Below, piece after piece: positions 14,706 to 49,278 of a DNA stretch of 49,857 nt. The position numbers were made by a program, and so were the translations under genes. The stretch is from a virus. The stretch lies in IMG/VR virus record IMGVR_UViG_3300029319_000086, positions 1 to 49,857 of that record. One strand, written 5' to 3'. The notes below the pieces were generated by a model, which saw nothing but the letters and a program-made list of their open reading frames with translations, was not told where the DNA came from and ran no database searches. Position 1 is the first letter of the stretch. Each line of letters begins with the position of its first letter.

Positions 14706-17700
14706 CTATCCTACGTAACCTTCTCTTATGGCTTCTTCAGATTTTTCGTCAGATGTTAAATAAGACGGATCTTCTGAAGTATCTGACATTACATCATCGA
14801 CAAATCTATTCATTCGCTCTTCTCTACTTTGAGCATACGCTTCTTCGTCACGAACCCTTTCAATATAAAGAGTACCTTCTTTTTCTCTGTCTCTCATATC
14901 ATCCAAAAAAGATCTTCTATTTGGATCGTAATCCATCATATTGCTTACGTAAGGAGCGGCTTGCTCCCCTTCAATTATAAAATCGTTGCGGTATTCGTTA
15001 TTTTCTATGTTACTACCAACAAATCTAATAGAAGTTGTTTGGTCGGGAGAAGGGGCAATTTTGTCTGCTTCGTCCATTAAAAAGTTATCAAGTTGAAACG
15101 CCCAATTGCCTATGTTGTCTTCATTGTATTTATCTGCAAATTGATTAAATAAATCCACTTTGTCATACTCTCGTAAACGAGGATCTGTAGAAATTTTATC
15201 ATCTAAGAATTGATTTAAATTGTTTTCAGTCAATTCATCCCCATATTGATCATACGAACTTTGTAATGGCCTATTTTTATCTACGCTAATAATAACATAA
15301 GTTGGATTAAATTCACGACCAGATTTCTCATTGGAATAATTATCCATAATACCAAAGTTTTCTTGCATGTCATCAACTGAAACACCAAGTTGTACAGCAA
15401 ATGCATCTATAGGCAGAAAAACTTTATTTGTTCTTAAAACGAAATCTTCAATCTTTTCTTCATGAACTGTTTTCCCATCTACGTTTTCGTATTTTATTTC
15501 ACCCTTAGACCAATCAAACCACATTGAATAAAAATTCATATCTTCTTCATATATTTCGGGTGCAAAAAGACCTGCATTTGCCATTCTCGTTATATCTTTT
15601 TGCGGAATCTGCATACCTTCTTTAAACCACTTCTTAGAAGCTGATCCATCGTATAAGCTTTTTACATGTGAAACAGTTTTAAATGAAGCATATGCCATTG
15701 CCATATAAGGCACTGTTTTATTCCAAAACCCCATACCTTCTCCGGGTAAAAACGAATCAAGTTTGCTTTGGACACCTTTAAGGAATGTGGGGAGAGTTGA
15801 TGTTGCAAATTTAGCAGCCCCGGCCCCACCTTCATCAGGACTGCTATTGTCTAAAAAAGAATTATAAAGATCCACAACACCTTCTCTTGTAACATCACCT
15901 ACTCCTGCCCCAACCCCACTAAAGAAGGCTTCTCCCAAGCCAGAGAAAAATCCACCTCCCCTATCTCTTGACCCTCCAGTGCCAACCCCTCCTGCTGTCA
16001 TACCCATAACGCTCATAATTGCAGCAAATTTTTCTTTTCCTTTATCTGTATCTAACAAATTACCATCTAAAACCTCTGCCCAAATAGAATCTCTTCTGGC
16101 TTCAGACTTTTCATAATTATCATACTCAGACATAAACCGATTAAATTCTTCTTCAGTCATGTCGTATTCTTGGCGTAGAGCTATTAACTTTTCGTCATGC
16201 AGATCTTTTGCAAAGTCTAATGCTTGCTCTACTTGCCTTTTATCTAAACCAAACTCGTTTGCCCAAAACCTCGCAGATTGCGCTCTATCTAAGCCTCTTT
16301 GTAAAACATCTTGATCGACTTGATATCTTGTTAAAGCAAGTTTCTCCCTACTAATTGCATATTCATTTGCAGCTTCGGTCAAAGCTAACTCATCCATTCT
16401 TTCAGCTTCTGACCTTCTTGCTTCAAACTCTAAATAGCTAAGCTTAAGATTCCCTGCGGCTTCTAACTTATCCAATTCTCTATCTAAGCTTTGCTGTGTT
16501 ATTTGAGCCTGTAATGCATCAGCATCGGCATCAAGCCTTGCCAGTGCCAACTCTGCTTCATTTTCTACTTGGATTTTTGAAAGATCTAACTCTCCACGCC
16601 TAATATCTAACTCTTCTATATTAAGAATGTTTTGCTCAAATGCTGTTCTAATAGTCAAATTTAATTCTGCCGCATCTAACTCATACCGCTTACTAAATTC
16701 TTCTTGAGCATTTGATAGCTCTCGCTCAGACAAGCCATAGTTAGCTTGAAACATTCTAAATTGTTGTTGCAATTCTTTATTAAATTGATCTATTGTGGCA
16801 TCTAATTGCTGTCGTTCTAAATCCAATCCTTGATTAGCCAACCTACTGCTATCTTCTTGAGCTTTTGCTTTTAGAGTTTTTACTGGTATACCATCTTTAT
16901 TTATGATAAATCCTAACTGATCACTAACTCTAAGCGTTTCTTCAAGAGTATACTGTCGTTCTTCTAAGTCTAACCGCTCATCATCTTGCCGTATTCTTGC
17001 ATTAGACAAGATCATTTCTTGTGCTATTTGCTGATCTCTTAGTGACAGTTCTGACTTAGATAAAAACTCTTCTAAGAAAAATTGCCTTTCAGATAAATCA
17101 AACTCTGTATTAAAAATTGCTTCTTCTAAAACCAACTGCTTTTGATCTAAGTCAATAGATCTATTAGCAGTCAAATCTTGCAATAAAATTCTTTTTTCTT
17201 CTAAATCTAACTGCTCACCCTCCAAAGACAGTCGTTCTAATCCAAGAGTTTTTTCCCAATCTAACTGCTCTTCTCTTGACAACTGATCATACTCTAATCT
17301 TTTCTCGTCAATTCTTTGAGCATTTTGATCTAACACAACTTTATTATTTGCAATAAACTGATCAAGCAACAACCTTTGTTCTTCTAAAGCTTGCCGTTCG
17401 TTTATTTGACCTGCCTCTAATTTCTGTTGATTCTCAGCTAAAAGAAGATTTTTCCTTTCGATAAAGTCAGTTAGGTTAAATCTTGCAAATTCAAGATCTT
17501 GCTGTTCTCTGCGAATTGCTAGCTCACCTTCGCCAAGCATTTTGTTAAGAACAAACTCACGCTCTTCTGCTTCTATACCTGCTTCACCTAAGAACTCATC
17601 AAGCCGCAATCGTCTTTCCGATAAAGAAAGTCCCTGCAACCCTAAGACTTCTTCTAAGTTATATTTTTTAGCGTCAAGCTCTATGTTTTTTATTGTTGAT

Positions 17701-42402: not shown

Positions 42403-43071
42403 ATGGCTATCTCCACTCTCGTAGCAAAGTTGAGCACCACGAACAGCAACGCCCACACGAAAGCTACTTACGTAGCTCCTGCGCGTCCTGCTTCTAAGAA
42501 GCAGCGGAGGCTGATTTACTTCGCCTCACTTCGTCTTGGGGTTCGATTCACTGGCATATGGGATGCCAAGGTGAGTGCGGACGATCTCAGTCCTGCTTGC
42601 GCGGCTCTCAGGCGTGAAAGCGGAGCTTCGCGCCAAGAGCAACTTGATGCCTTGGATTACTTGGAAGAGTTGGGTATCAAGTACGAGATGCAGGATGCCC
42701 ATAAGGTGCCAAGCGAGCCTGTGAAGGTTGAGCCTTCGCAGGAGCCGAAGGCCGCGCCCAAGGCTAAAGCCAAGCCGAAGTCTAAGGGTAAGACGAGCAA
42801 ACACTTACCGCTTGCCTATGGACGCTACGTCAAGCACAGCAAAAAGATTCTTGCCGAAGGCAAGAAGACGACCATCCTATCCTTTGAGGACTGGGTGGCT
42901 AACAGGGGCGAAGATGCGCCCAAGGCAACGCCCAAGCCGAAGGCCGCGCCCGTTGCGGAGCCGAAGAAAGAAAACACGCTCTCTTCAGACGATAAGCTGA
43001 AGATGCTTATCGACCACATGCAAACGCAGTCCAAAGCGAACCTTGAGCTTTTACAGGCTCTTACGAAGTAA
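42403..43071 (+). CDS. GC-rich gene for a Lys/Pro/Ala-linker protein
   Basis: 222 aa after a good SD (AAAGGAG). Residues about 25-95 form a small domain (ASKKQRRLIYFASLRLG, then DLSPACAALRRESGASRQ). A linker PKAAPKAKAKPKSKGKTSK, a middle HLPLAYGRYVKHSKKILAEG segment, a second Pro/Lys linker and a short acidic helix follow. Codons are GC-rich (63% in 42721-42780 by hand count), unlike the genes around it; the same composition begins in the upstream island. The linkers resemble histone H1-like DNA-binding proteins. Possible recent acquisition together with the island, or an origin-binding protein. Confidence 0.65.
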   Translation: MAISTLVAKLSTTNSNAHTKATYVAPARPASKKQRRLIYFASLRLGVRFTGIWDAKVSADDLSPACAALRRESGASRQEQLDALDYLEELGIKYEMQDAHKVPSEPVKVEPSQEPKAAPKAKAKPKSKGKTSKHLPLAYGRYVKHSKKILAEGKKTTILSFEDWVANRGEDAPKATPKPKAAPVAEPKKENTLSSDDKLKMLIDHMQTQSKANLELLQALTK

Positions 43072-43083
43072 GTATCGCCCATA

Positions 43084-43119
43084 CCTACCGCATGGCTTCT
43101 ACGGAAGCTGTGTGGTAGG
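43084..43119 (+). other. Intergenic hairpin after the 42403 gene
   Basis: CCTACCGCA pairs with TGTGGTAGG (one G-U), with a second stem GCTTC/GAAGC above a small internal loop and a TACG loop. No U-tract follows, so it is not a normal terminator; it may protect the 3' end or mark a processing site, as the ribozymes do in the next two gaps. Confidence 0.5.
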
Positions 43120-43124
43120 GCCAC

Positions 43125-43134
43125 TTGTTAACAA
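43125..43134 (+). promoter_or_regulatory. TTGTTAACAA palindrome, one of four intergenic copies
   Basis: The same ACTTGTTAACAA occurs here, at 43558-43567, at 578-587 and at 21453-21462, always in a gap. The two copies here and at 43558 are followed by GAAAG and the SD of the next gene. It could be a protein operator or an mRNA-leader element. Confidence 0.4.
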
Positions 43135-43149
43135 GAAAGGAAAGCAGTG

Positions 43150-43491
43150 ATGCGCTTTGATTCTGAGACGAACTATCATCATGTAGCAGTTACGAAGAGA
43201 GACGGGATAATCAGTCTTTTCGTAACCGAAAAGATGATGCCGAGCATAGATAGTGACTTCATGAGAAACTTCAAAACTTCTCTTGAAGAACTCAGAGAAC
43301 TCTTTGAAGACATTGGCCCGACTACTTTAATGTGGGGCGTAGAAAACATCGAATTACACATAAACACGGAGGAGCTACCTGAAGAGAATAACCTCAAAGC
43401 TATTGAGGTAGTTGAATATGCGGCATCTATTATAGATAGAAGGATAAGTTTTGAACTTAACTGGAAAAATCCAGTAATGTTTTCCACCTAA
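43150..43491 (+). CDS. Hypothetical protein upstream of ribozyme 1
   Basis: 113 aa; the ATG at 43150 is chosen over the GTG at 43147 because AAGGAAAG is well spaced. Alternating strands and helices (TKRDGIISLFVTEKMMPSI, then ELREL, then a LKAIEVVEYAASIIDRRI helix), acidic. Not recognised. Its stop codon lies inside the 5' arm of hammerhead 1 (TAA at 43489-43491), so ribosomes finishing this gene must disturb the ribozyme fold, linking translation to cleavage. Confidence 0.65.
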   Translation: MRFDSETNYHHVAVTKRDGIISLFVTEKMMPSIDSDFMRNFKTSLEELRELFEDIGPTTLMWGVENIELHINTEELPEENNLKAIEVVEYAASIIDRRISFELNWKNPVMFST

Positions 43492-43545
43492 ACTGATGAG
43501 ACTTAGAAAGTCGAAACACTTGGTGTGAGCCAAGTGTCTTTAGGT
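43486..43545 (+). ncRNA. Hammerhead ribozyme 1 (type I)
   Basis: All core elements are present. Stem I ACCTAAA/TTTAGGT (43486-43492/43539-43545, 7 bp, open end); CTGATGA at 43493-43499; stem II 43500-43504/43508-43512 with loop AGA; GAAA at 43513-43516; stem III 43517-43523/43530-43536 plus the A-U pair 43516-43537, loop TGTGAG. The cleavage triplet is GTC, so cutting falls after 43538. Released downstream RNA would start with a 44-nt leader before the ATG at 43583. A second copy at 43914 differs at 4 of 60 positions, two of which are a compensating stem III pair. Confidence 0.92.
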
Positions 43546-43582
43546 TAATCCCATAACTTGTTAACAAGAAAGAAGGAACGGC

Positions 43583-43912
43583 ATGAAAAAAACCTACGAA
43601 GTAGCAAAGCGAGATTGGTCAGTTATTCCAGTAGAGTTTAGGAACATAAGCGTGAAAGAAGATAAGGCCTCTTTCACGGTAAACATTGATCGCCTCTTGA
43701 ACGATAACGTGAAGGTGATGGTCAAGAGACACCTTCACGCATCACTACAAGACTTGAGTGATAAGATTCAGCAAGCAATCGAAAAGGAGATCTTAGAGCA
43801 TAGGTTACACTGCGCGGACAGTGTTAAGACGCACCTTGAAAGCGTCATTGACCACCAAGATGCGTTGATAAAACGATATGAAGAAATAGAAGAGGAAGAG
43901 GGAGAAGAGTAG
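43583..43912 (+). CDS. Hypothetical protein flanked by two hammerhead ribozymes
   Basis: 109 aa, ATG after AAGAAGG. Beta-strand start (DWSVIPVEFRNISVKEDK), then a long amphipathic helix region (HLHASLQDLSDKIQQAIEKE and on) and a Glu-rich tail (EEIEEEEGEE). Unrecognised; it might be an oligomeric helical protein. It is the only gene on the 428-nt RNA that the two ribozymes would excise (43539-43966). Confidence 0.65.
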   Translation: MKKTYEVAKRDWSVIPVEFRNISVKEDKASFTVNIDRLLNDNVKVMVKRHLHASLQDLSDKIQQAIEKEILEHRLHCADSVKTHLESVIDHQDALIKRYEEIEEEEGEE

Positions 43913-43913
43913 C

Positions 43914-43973
43914 ACCTAAACTGATGAGACTTGGAAAGTCGAAACTCTTGGTGAGAGCCAAGAGTCTTTAGGT
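43914..43973 (+). ncRNA. Hammerhead ribozyme 2 (type I)
   Basis: Same fold: stem I 43914-43920/43967-43973, CTGATGA 43921-43927, stem II 43928-43932/43936-43940 with loop GGA, GAAA 43941-43944, stem III 43945-43951/43958-43964 plus the A-U pair 43944-43965, loop TGAGAG, cleavage triplet GTC with cutting after 43966. It starts one base after the upstream TAG. Stem III position 43946-43963 is T-A where copy 1 has A-T (43518-43535), a covariation that supports selection on the RNA. Cleavage leaves a 39-nt leader before the gene at 44006. Confidence 0.92.
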
Positions 43974-44005
43974 AAACCTTATAACTCATTGCAGGAGAAC
44001 GTCTT

Positions 44006-44521
44006 ATGAAGTTGTCAAGAGCTTTTCGTAAAGTCGCACGTAAGGTTTGGAATCAACTCTCTCTTGAGAGAGATTTGTTCAACGAGTTTGTCCCACCAGA
44101 AGTCTATCGGGACACTGACACGGAAGCACAAGAAACATGGGGAACCTTTACTTGCTATGTAAGTAAAGGAAGAGCCAACTTCTATCGTAAGATCTTCTGG
44201 GATGCTATCCAGAATGACTTGCCTATCTATTATACCTATGACGGGGTCTGGGTACAAGAGGAAACAGAAGTAGGGTTCCATTCATTCAGCGTAGAGTATC
44301 CCTTTAAAGACAAAGAGGACGTAGATGACATTGAGTTCTGTATCTGTGCACCAGAGGAAGCTAAAGAGTTTATCAAGGGAATATTGTTCAAGGGTTTGGA
44401 TAACACCAAGGCCCAATTGGAAGGGGTGGATATGAACCCATCCATCGCCTTATTGAAAGAGAGCTACGACAATTTTATGGTAGAAAAAGGAAGACGAACC
44501 CCTAACTGGAAGGAGGCGTAA
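44006..44521 (+). CDS. Hypothetical protein downstream of ribozyme 2
   Basis: 171 aa, ATG after AGGAG. An N-terminal basic helix (KLSRAFRKVARKVWNQL) precedes a mixed alpha/beta body with many Glu, Asp, Tyr and Trp residues (TWGTFTCYVSKGRANFYRK, YTYDGVWVQEETEVGF). No motif recognised. Its mRNA would begin with a 5'-OH made by ribozyme 2. Confidence 0.65.
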   Translation: MKLSRAFRKVARKVWNQLSLERDLFNEFVPPEVYRDTDTEAQETWGTFTCYVSKGRANFYRKIFWDAIQNDLPIYYTYDGVWVQEETEVGFHSFSVEYPFKDKEDVDDIEFCICAPEEAKEFIKGILFKGLDNTKAQLEGVDMNPSIALLKESYDNFMVEKGRRTPNWKEA

Positions 44522-44522
44522 C

Positions 44523-44696
44523 ATGATTAGAATCAAGGACTTACAGCCGATAAGGGATAGTAAAGGCAGATTCACTGGAGAATACATGGGAACTTTTGTT
44601 TGGCCCAGTATTCTAAAAGTAGATGGTGGCATGATAGGCAAAGGCATATCAGCGGCCATCATAATATGGGTGTCAATCACCCTCTCATATTTATAG
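44523..44696 (+). CDS. 57-aa single-pass membrane protein
   Basis: Short ORF beginning 1 base after the previous stop. The C-terminal half (MIGKGISAAIIIWVSITLSYL) is a transmembrane helix; the N-terminus (RIKDLQPIRDSKGRFTGEYM) is soluble. It ends directly before the SD of the next gene. The packing supports expression. Function unknown; membrane peptides in early operons often affect host physiology or exclusion. Confidence 0.5.
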   Translation: MIRIKDLQPIRDSKGRFTGEYMGTFVWPSILKVDGGMIGKGISAAIIIWVSITLSYL

Positions 44697-47315: not shown

Positions 47316-48095
47316 ATGGCATACGCATCTTACACCGTCACCCAAGAAGTAGACGTAACAGTAGAGCAGAGCATTCACATTGAAGACAAAGAGGGTGTAG
47401 AAATAGAAGTCTTAGAATATGATATAGACGAAGACGACATTCGTATTACGATTGACGGCTGTATAAAAACGGATGACGATGAAGTAAAAGTAGAAGTGTT
47501 CGATGAGGCAGGTAAGAAAGTAAGTCTAATTGAGGACGAATACGATGATAACAGTGAACCCAACAAGGTAACTCTTGAAGGGTTTGTGATCTCAAAGGAA
47601 GAGATGCATGAATACAAGAGGTTGAAGCAAGCAAGCAATGATATGAGAATTCTCTTATATGTAAGCGAGGATGACAAAAAGAATATAGAGAAAGACATAA
47701 ATCAGAGAGCAATCTGGTTGATACCAGACAAGAAGGACGCTCTTGGGACAGACTACGAACCGTGGACTGTCAACAACTTGGTGAGATGCACTCTTGAAAA
47801 AGACGATCTAAAGACAATTCTACGATCAATGGCAGGTCAGATCGTAGACAAGCTATGGCCTGAAGAAAAGGAGGAAGTAGATGAATTGACACAGATCAAC
47901 GAAGCTATTGGTAAAGGATTGGATGCGGCAGGAGAGTCAAAGCATCCTGTCCACAACTTGGGGACTATCACGATAAGTGAAGACTCAAAGCATAAGATTG
48001 AGAACCCAAAAACTAACCTGCATATCAAAGATGATACTGGTAATGAAGAAGCCACACAAGAGATCTTAAACTCTATTGGAATATCTGACCAATAA
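47316..48095 (+). CDS. Acidic hypothetical protein
   Basis: 259 aa, start 2 bases after the previous stop. The first 90 residues are strongly acidic beta-strands with a doubled pattern (VEQSIHIEDKEGVEIEVLEY, then EDDIRITIDGCIKTDDDEV). The remaining part is helical and charged. It may mimic DNA by charge (anti-restriction style), which is speculation. No homology seen. Confidence 0.6.
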   Translation: MAYASYTVTQEVDVTVEQSIHIEDKEGVEIEVLEYDIDEDDIRITIDGCIKTDDDEVKVEVFDEAGKKVSLIEDEYDDNSEPNKVTLEGFVISKEEMHEYKRLKQASNDMRILLYVSEDDKKNIEKDINQRAIWLIPDKKDALGTDYEPWTVNNLVRCTLEKDDLKTILRSMAGQIVDKLWPEEKEEVDELTQINEAIGKGLDAAGESKHPVHNLGTITISEDSKHKIENPKTNLHIKDDTGNEEATQEILNSIGISDQ

Positions 48096-48189: not shown

Positions 48190-49278
48190 ATGAAAGACGG
48201 ACGCTCACTCCAATCTTTAGCCGCTGAACTTGATCGCCAGAACGAAGCAAAGAGAGACTTTGTCTTGGATACAAGAGCCTGTCAAGTCTTTGCCTCAAAG
48301 GAAGAGACACCAGACGGGGTCAAAGAGAACGGTATTACTATGGGAATGAATCGCATTGAAGGACTGTTCCCTGTAAACCGTATCGCTAATACTCAGATAG
48401 GATCACGCTTAGAGATTCCTAAAAAGTATTACGACAAGATGATGTCTAACAGCACCGACCTTCTGGTTCACAACATCAATCACTGGCTACAGAACACTCC
48501 AGAGAAGCGTATGATACGCACACTGGATGGTAATTGTAGAGCATTCTTGAGTGACCGTTACAGACCATTGGACAATTACGATCTGGCAAACGCAGTGCTA
48601 CCAGAGATGATTGACCGAAAACTTGATATACGATCTTGCGAGATTACAGAAAGCAAGATGTATATCAAAGCAGTAAGCCATGAATTAGAAGGAGAAGTAA
48701 AAGCAGGTGATGTCGTACGAGGTGGATGTATTGTCTCAAACTCTGAGGTAGGTCTTGGAGTGTTACTTGTCTCACCGTTTATAGAGAGGCTTATATGCAC
48801 CAACGGTATGGTCGTGACAGACTATGGTAAGCGTAGGTATCACGTTGGCAAAAAGAACAATGAGGTTCTTGATATCAACGATGCCTATGAGGTATACTCT
48901 GATGCTACGAAAGAGCTTACAGATAAAGCTTTCTGGCATCAAGTACGTGATGTTGTCAAAGCCACTCTTACACAGGATAGGTTTAACACTATACTGGATT
49001 CGTTTAGAGAGGCAACACAGATACCAATGAGCGAAGACCCCATGACTGTTGTTGAGAAGACACAAAAGAAGTTTCATCTCAGCGACAGTGATAAGGGCGG
49101 TATCCTTCAGCACTTACTGGAAGACAAAGACTATACCAAGTGGGGATTGGCTAACGCCGTCACCCGCACTGCTGAAGATATCAGCGACTACGATAGAGCC
49201 ACAGAGCTTGAGACTTTAGGTTGGAATGTGGTTCAGATGCCCAAGCGTGATTGGCTTGCCATCGGAGGGGCAGCATAA
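48190..49278 (+). CDS. DUF932 phage/plasmid protein
   Basis: 362 aa, SD AAAGGAA. The conserved DUF932 pattern is clear: GMNRIEGLFPVNRIANTQ, RMIRTLDGNCRAFLSDRY with R-PLDNYDLA, VSNSEVGLGVLLVSPFIERL, then LICTNGMVV. DUF932 proteins are common on plasmids and phages and are thought to act in DNA transactions or anti-defence; the role is not established. It is the last gene of the plus operon and is followed by a terminator hairpin. Confidence 0.85.
   Translation: MKDGRSLQSLAAELDRQNEAKRDFVLDTRACQVFASKEETPDGVKENGITMGMNRIEGLFPVNRIANTQIGSRLEIPKKYYDKMMSNSTDLLVHNINHWLQNTPEKRMIRTLDGNCRAFLSDRYRPLDNYDLANAVLPEMIDRKLDIRSCEITESKMYIKAVSHELEGEVKAGDVVRGGCIVSNSEVGLGVLLVSPFIERLICTNGMVVTDYGKRRYHVGKKNNEVLDINDAYEVYSDATKELTDKAFWHQVRDVVKATLTQDRFNTILDSFREATQIPMSEDPMTVVEKTQKKFHLSDSDKGGILQHLLEDKDYTKWGLANAVTRTAEDISDYDRATELETLGWNVVQMPKRDWLAIGGAA

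Follow-up and report, generated by a model that had tools for sequence, protein, structure and literature searches.

Clustered hammerhead ribozymes have been described in prophages. In the parts of Perreault et al. (2011; PMC3088659) on which we draw, such clusters flank single prophage genes "on many occasions"; three clustered arrays cleaved in vitro and one in vivo in E. coli, and the processing of long phage transcripts by clustered hammerheads was proposed. Of 18 consensus hammerheads tested in that paper, 4 showed no activity; circles and spliced products were sought and none was found; and in the haloviruses HF1 and HF2 a mapped early-transcript 5' end falls no more than three nucleotides from the site at which a hammerhead cleaves. 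Hammerheads and twisters have since been found enriched near the same genes, some of them related to Mu-like phages, with "the biological reason ... still unknown" (PMC10085705, 2023).

The window analysed here (49,857 bases, an entire IMG/VR virus record) contains a clustered intercistronic pair as defined by at least two hammerheads on one strand that flank single genes. The sequence-only reading had considered a tandem intercistronic pair unusual. This view cannot be kept, as PMC3088659 has many such cases in prophages and the viral contigs that we scanned hold arrays of 3 to 10.

Two hammerheads at consecutive gene ends

Structural genes, among them those for terminase and the major head protein, form a block on the minus strand of the window, and small genes form another on the plus strand. 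The features discussed below are as follows; model R1 is described in the next section.

42403..43071, plus strand: gene A, the conserved left border of a variable interval, with homologues in the related contigs L021 and L026
43084..43119, plus strand: 16-bp hairpin with a UACG loop between gene A and g1 (fold z = -3.65)
43124-43135 (g1 leader) and 43557..43568 (g2 leader), plus strand: perfect 12-base palindrome CTTGTTAACAAG
43147..43491, plus strand: g1, 114 aa, no family; stop codon TAA at 43489-43491, within stem I of hammerhead 1
43486..43545, plus strand: hammerhead 1, type I, by sequence, fold and model R1
43486-43492/43539-43545: stem I of hammerhead 1, 7 bp
43493-43499, plus strand: CTGATGA core of hammerhead 1
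43500-43512, plus strand: stem II of hammerhead 1
43513-43516, plus strand: GAAA of hammerhead 1
43516-43524/43529-43537: stem III of hammerhead 1, 9 bp
43538: C17 of hammerhead 1; predicted cut 3' of C43538, predicted 5'-OH at 43539
43583..43912, plus strand: g2, 109 aa, no family, between both hammerheads; stop codon TAG at 43910-43912, one base 5' of hammerhead 2
43913..43986, plus strand: 74-nt direct repeat (89%), partner at 43485-43558
43914..43973, plus strand: hammerhead 2, type I, by sequence, fold and model R1
43914-43920/43967-43973, plus strand: stem I of hammerhead 2
43921-43927, plus strand: core of hammerhead 2
43928-43940 and 43944-43965, plus strand: stems II and III of hammerhead 2
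43966: C17 of hammerhead 2; predicted 5'-OH at 43967
44006..44521, plus strand: g3, 171 aa, no family; leader of 39 nt from predicted cleavage site 2
44523..44696, plus strand: gene B, conserved right border in L021, where it lies directly 3' of a Twister-P5 ribozyme

Both copies have the CUGANGA and GAA segments and the A15.1-U16.1 pair of type I hammerheads, according to the sequence and a descriptor, with GUC as the NUH site; in the folds stem I is open and stems II and III are loop-closed. The minimum-energy fold is the hammerhead three-way junction in each case (z = -3.2 and -3.0). Sequence and fold thus bear out the earlier description of two 60-nt copies with CTGATGA, GAAA, GTC and three stems in type I topology, and the ORF positions agree with its placement of the upstream stop inside the 5' arm of copy 1 and of copy 2 one base past a stop.

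The layout of hammerhead 2 is that of hammerhead 1 shifted by 428, and the copies are identical at 56 of 60 bases, with all core bases unaltered in both. Comparing them gives the same four differences that had been reported before: one in loop II (43505, A/G), one in loop III (43526, T/A) and two that form a compensating swap in stem III (43518, A/T, paired with 43535, T/A). As for the covariation claimed from these differences, the compensated pair is real, but one pair alone is weak, and the family alignment gives more. The 74-nt direct repeat consists of the hammerhead and about 13 nt of its 3' flank; the 5' flanks are dissimilar.

Canonical pairing of loop II with the stem I region, or in a pseudoknot, yields no complementary segment common to both copies, and a pseudoknot of loop II with the flanks was rejected, the copies disagreeing. 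A weak external stem Ib (43473-43478 with the 43552-43557 region) occurs in copy 1 and is not claimed because copy 2 has none. No clear tertiary contact is recognised, and the cleavage rate in cells may therefore be low.

The g2 leader measures 44 nt from predicted cleavage site 1. Scanning the plus strand between 41500 and 44450 for sigma-70-type sites gave no promoter-like sites, and we assume from the spacing and this absence of predicted promoters that g1 to g3 share one transcript. The junction between gene A and g1 is occupied by the plain hairpin at 43084-43119, with no recognised ribozyme; in L026 a twister lies between gene A and the next gene. The palindrome CTTGTTAACAAG is followed by AAAG in both leaders, and an operator, an RNA hairpin or a recombination joint are candidate roles. 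We also note that 30 nt at the start of g2 (43614-43643) and 30 nt at the end of the ORF at 47316-48095 (48064-48093) form an inverted repeat with 90% complementarity. No close protein relatives of g2 or g3 were found in IMG/VR, and g3 was not found in cultured phages, which give no nucleotide-level match to the right 20 kb of the window. A BLAST match in an Aeromonas phage exonuclease covers 24 nt only and was set aside.

Identification against chance and described families

The strict type I descriptor matches twice in the window; 60 first-order Markov windows give no match, nor do 749 kb of phage DNA picked by terminase homology. These counts rule out chance hammerheads. The covariance model R1 is based on 44 type I hammerheads from outside the window, whose loci are mostly viral contigs (L262 is a bacterial assembly). 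It scores hammerhead 1 at 50.8 bits (E = 2.9e-8) and hammerhead 2 at 52.8 bits (E = 9.8e-9), with no match in the remaining terminase-selected loci. In the alignment of the 44, 12 of 16 pairs change on both sides and the covariation is 0.78 vs 0.16 after shuffling, while the 100% paired value is biased because the members were selected by pairing. Type I identity and intercistronic position, as first proposed, are therefore supported by sequence, fold, model R1 and ORF positions.

The search with the Rfam type I model that had been suggested as a check fails at the cut-off, both in the window and in ten array loci. At its curated cut-offs Rfam 15 finds neither window hammerhead and gives no match in those ten loci; RF00163 (Hammerhead_1) has no match in the window, and in one phage array locus it scores 19.9 bits where 34 are required. 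Among families below threshold, RAGATH-1-hammerhead (RF03152) comes closest, with 35.3 and 35.1 bits against a cut-off of 56.3. It resembles the window copies in the CUGAUGAGACUUgG...CGAAAC core region, the open stem I and the same strand order. However, the 5' hairpin of RAGATH-1-hammerhead, whose loop complements loop II in L001, L005 and L010 (CCAAG with CUUGG), is absent beside both window copies, where stem II is a normal hairpin of 4-5 bp; a lone CCAAG lies 59 nt upstream of copy 2 only. Given this and the score below 56.3, membership of that family was rejected. No other ribozymes or tRNAs were found in the window, and snoRNA, U12 and miRNA matches under the cut-off were dismissed as chance. 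The Rfam 15 cut-offs miss the phage type I group, and annotation therefore overlooks it; this is a practical point, as such hammerheads go missing from present annotation.

Gene junctions in other phages

Pattern scans covered at least 120 viral stretches and 99 genome stretches, with ORFs called mechanically. Among the viral contigs scanned, same-strand arrays with 3 to 10 copies are common, for example with 10 in G020 (L009), 9 in G026 (L116) and 7 in G036 (L219). In L009 (2806-7584), L116, L219 and L262, 7 to 10 tandem type I hammerheads are arranged at about one per gene, 250-900 nt apart on one strand, again with no Rfam match at the cut-off. Of 128 type I hammerheads fetched by pattern, 106 have the end of the upstream stop codon at -7 to +11 relative to the start of stem I, and because the fetching pattern AACTGATGAG favours TAA before the core, neighbours not matching the fetching patterns were counted separately (30 of 42). 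Among the type I hammerheads of the fetched loci, the stop codon lies inside stem I in 55 cases and is the core UGA in 32, and the next start codon follows the cut at a median of 25-26 nt. In most of the type I hammerheads collected, then, a stop codon abuts or sits within the ribozyme, and the window pair follows the same stop/start geometry.

Several other loci deserve mention. A type I hammerhead directly past a stop codon is found beside tRNA genes in L016 (11679), L017 and L019, where loop II, UUAAU, could pair with a downstream AUUAA. The cultured Flavobacterium phage vB_FspP_elemoA_7-9A (MT497017; host Flavobacterium sp. BAL314) has a hammerhead that belongs to model R1 at 17280-17349, minus strand. 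In elemoA (L096:1463-1570) an annotated minus-strand hypothetical CDS overlaps a type I hammerhead encoded on the opposite strand; this CDS is probably spurious. In L008 a type III hammerhead (1150-1215) precedes, by about 30 nt, a homologue (38%) of the DUF932 gene found at 48190-49278 of the window, and L002 and L004 resemble L008; in the window itself this gene has no ribozyme.

By terminase, the closest IMG/VR relatives of the window are L021-L023 (87%) and L024-L026 (80%), and two independent relatives, L021 and L026, cover the interval between genes A and B. Each has a Twister-P5 ribozyme there:

L021, 3630-3554, minus strand: Twister-P5, 44.2 bits vs a cut-off of 37.6
L026, 6466-6397, minus strand: Twister-P5, 39.0 bits (cut-off 37.6)

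L021 keeps the gene order on either side of the interval: its gene A is 32% identical (E = 1e-25) and its gene B 49%, and homologues of 44708, 44940, 45136 and 45907 lie beyond gene B. The interval aligns fully, and in it g1 to g3 and both hammerheads are absent; a 65-aa gene and the Twister-P5 stand between A and B. The first base of this ribozyme is also the last of the 65-aa gene's stop codon, and 16 nt separate its 3' end from the ATG of gene B. Loss of the core in close relatives, which had been named as grounds for refutation, does not apply in that form, since L021 is missing the entire three-gene segment and has a twister ribozyme in its place. In L026 the Twister-P5 has gene A on one side and the 65-aa gene's homologue on the other, and lies 11 nt downstream of the upstream stop codon; gene B was not found in this contig. 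L025, the same phage as L026, also has the Twister-P5.

Searches with gene B or GP88 as probe return the same two contigs and distant GP88 homologues, and gene A gives likewise these, together with one fragment that ends before the interval. Elsewhere among 19 terminase-related records, many of which stop short of the interval, there is no Twister-P5. None of 19 further phage records, mostly hammerhead-array contigs, has one, so it is not general background. Read by eye and not computed, the L021 and L026 twisters appear to differ by compensating changes in two presumed pseudoknot pairs, one on the L1 side (GAGGG to GACGG, with loop UCCCAAG to UCCGAAC) and one in a second pair (GUCGC to GCCGG, with AAG to AAC).

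Related phages therefore have unrelated classes of self-cleaving ribozyme in the same operon interval, although the exact junctions differ slightly. The presence of a twister in the same stretch of the relatives suggests that the cutting of the mRNA there is what matters.

Proposed role and relation to known systems

We propose that the two hammerheads process the mRNA between cistrons by self-cleavage, and that one ribozyme class can replace another at such sites. Both the cleavage and its purpose are inferred, and we put the probability of this reading at roughly 0.77. Hammerheads are established to leave a 2',3'-cyclic phosphate and a 5'-OH. The copies at the ends of g1 and g2 would cut the shared transcript after C43538 and C43966, and in type I topology the entire catalytic body would stay with the upstream product. 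The g1 and g2 mRNAs would keep their stop codons, their 3' ends capped by the stem II and III hairpins flush with the cyclic phosphate, and the downstream g2 and g3 mRNAs would begin with a 5'-OH and a short leader (44 or 39 nt) with a ribosome-binding site. A polycistronic transcript would thus become single-gene mRNAs with defined and probably nuclease-resistant ends, so that the level of each gene could be set separately. Nuclease protection and separate dosage are the benefits that we infer. The processing role appears to be the best interpretation of the locus, and it is strengthened by the twisters in the operon interval of two independent relatives; the exchange of hammerhead for twister and the strict stop/start geometry argue that junction cleavage itself is selected.

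A further idea, which we regard as doubtful, is that the junctions carry a class-independent, stop-codon-embedded self-cleaving unit. The terminating ribosome would cover stem I and the core, upstream translation would time cleavage, and any fast self-cleaver, hammerhead or twister, would fit.

The copies might instead be inactive or very slow hammerhead remnants that now serve as mRNA 3' hairpins or weak terminators. A terminator scan scores the CUUUAGG that follows stem III, and the lack of a recognised tertiary contact would fit as well. The T-run is poor, however, and the core is unaltered in both copies while other positions have changed, one pair with compensation. The interval of the relatives, moreover, holds another self-cleaving class and not just a plain hairpin. 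We consider decay to remnants unlikely.

Still less probable is the release of a circle or monomer, in which the pair would excise a 428-nt g2 RNA (43539-43966) that ligation could close into a circle, as in retrozymes. The two copies have the same stem I, so that this RNA, once excised, can form the stem again, but 6-bp re-pairing is possible for 53% of adjacent copies vs 47% of non-adjacent copies of the same arrays. These values are close, so there is no sign of selection for re-pairing, and the published search for circles and spliced products, as given in the parts of PMC3088659 used here, was negative. Least likely of all is that the 74-nt, 89% identical repeats are chiefly homologous joints for gene exchange with the ribozyme carried along, for although L021 is without the g1-hammerhead-g2-hammerhead-g3 segment, it is the ribozyme that is conserved, other arrays preserve structure rather than sequence among their copies, and replacement by a twister requires no common sequence.

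As intercistronic processing sites, the window hammerheads are closest to the prophage clusters of Perreault et al. 2011 (PMC3088659), in which several close hammerheads flank single phage genes. They differ from those clusters in the stop codon in or next to the ribozyme, which goes unmentioned in the portions of that paper's text considered here, and in the Twister-P5 of their relatives. The HHphage of HF1 and HF2, as described in the same portions, is likewise a hammerhead just upstream of a virus early gene, with a mapped 5' end at the cleavage site, but it has a variant core, is present in a single copy and belongs to an archaeal virus. The Twister-P5 (RF02684) of L021 and L026 is alike in being a self-cleaving class in the same operon interval near an upstream stop codon, and differs from the hammerheads in its unrelated fold and ribozyme class. 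The kind of arrangement is thus already known; what is new is the Twister-P5 in the same operon interval of relatives and the stop/start geometry. To the published enrichment of hammerheads and twisters near the same genes (PMC10085705), the locus adds a position-matched case in one lineage.
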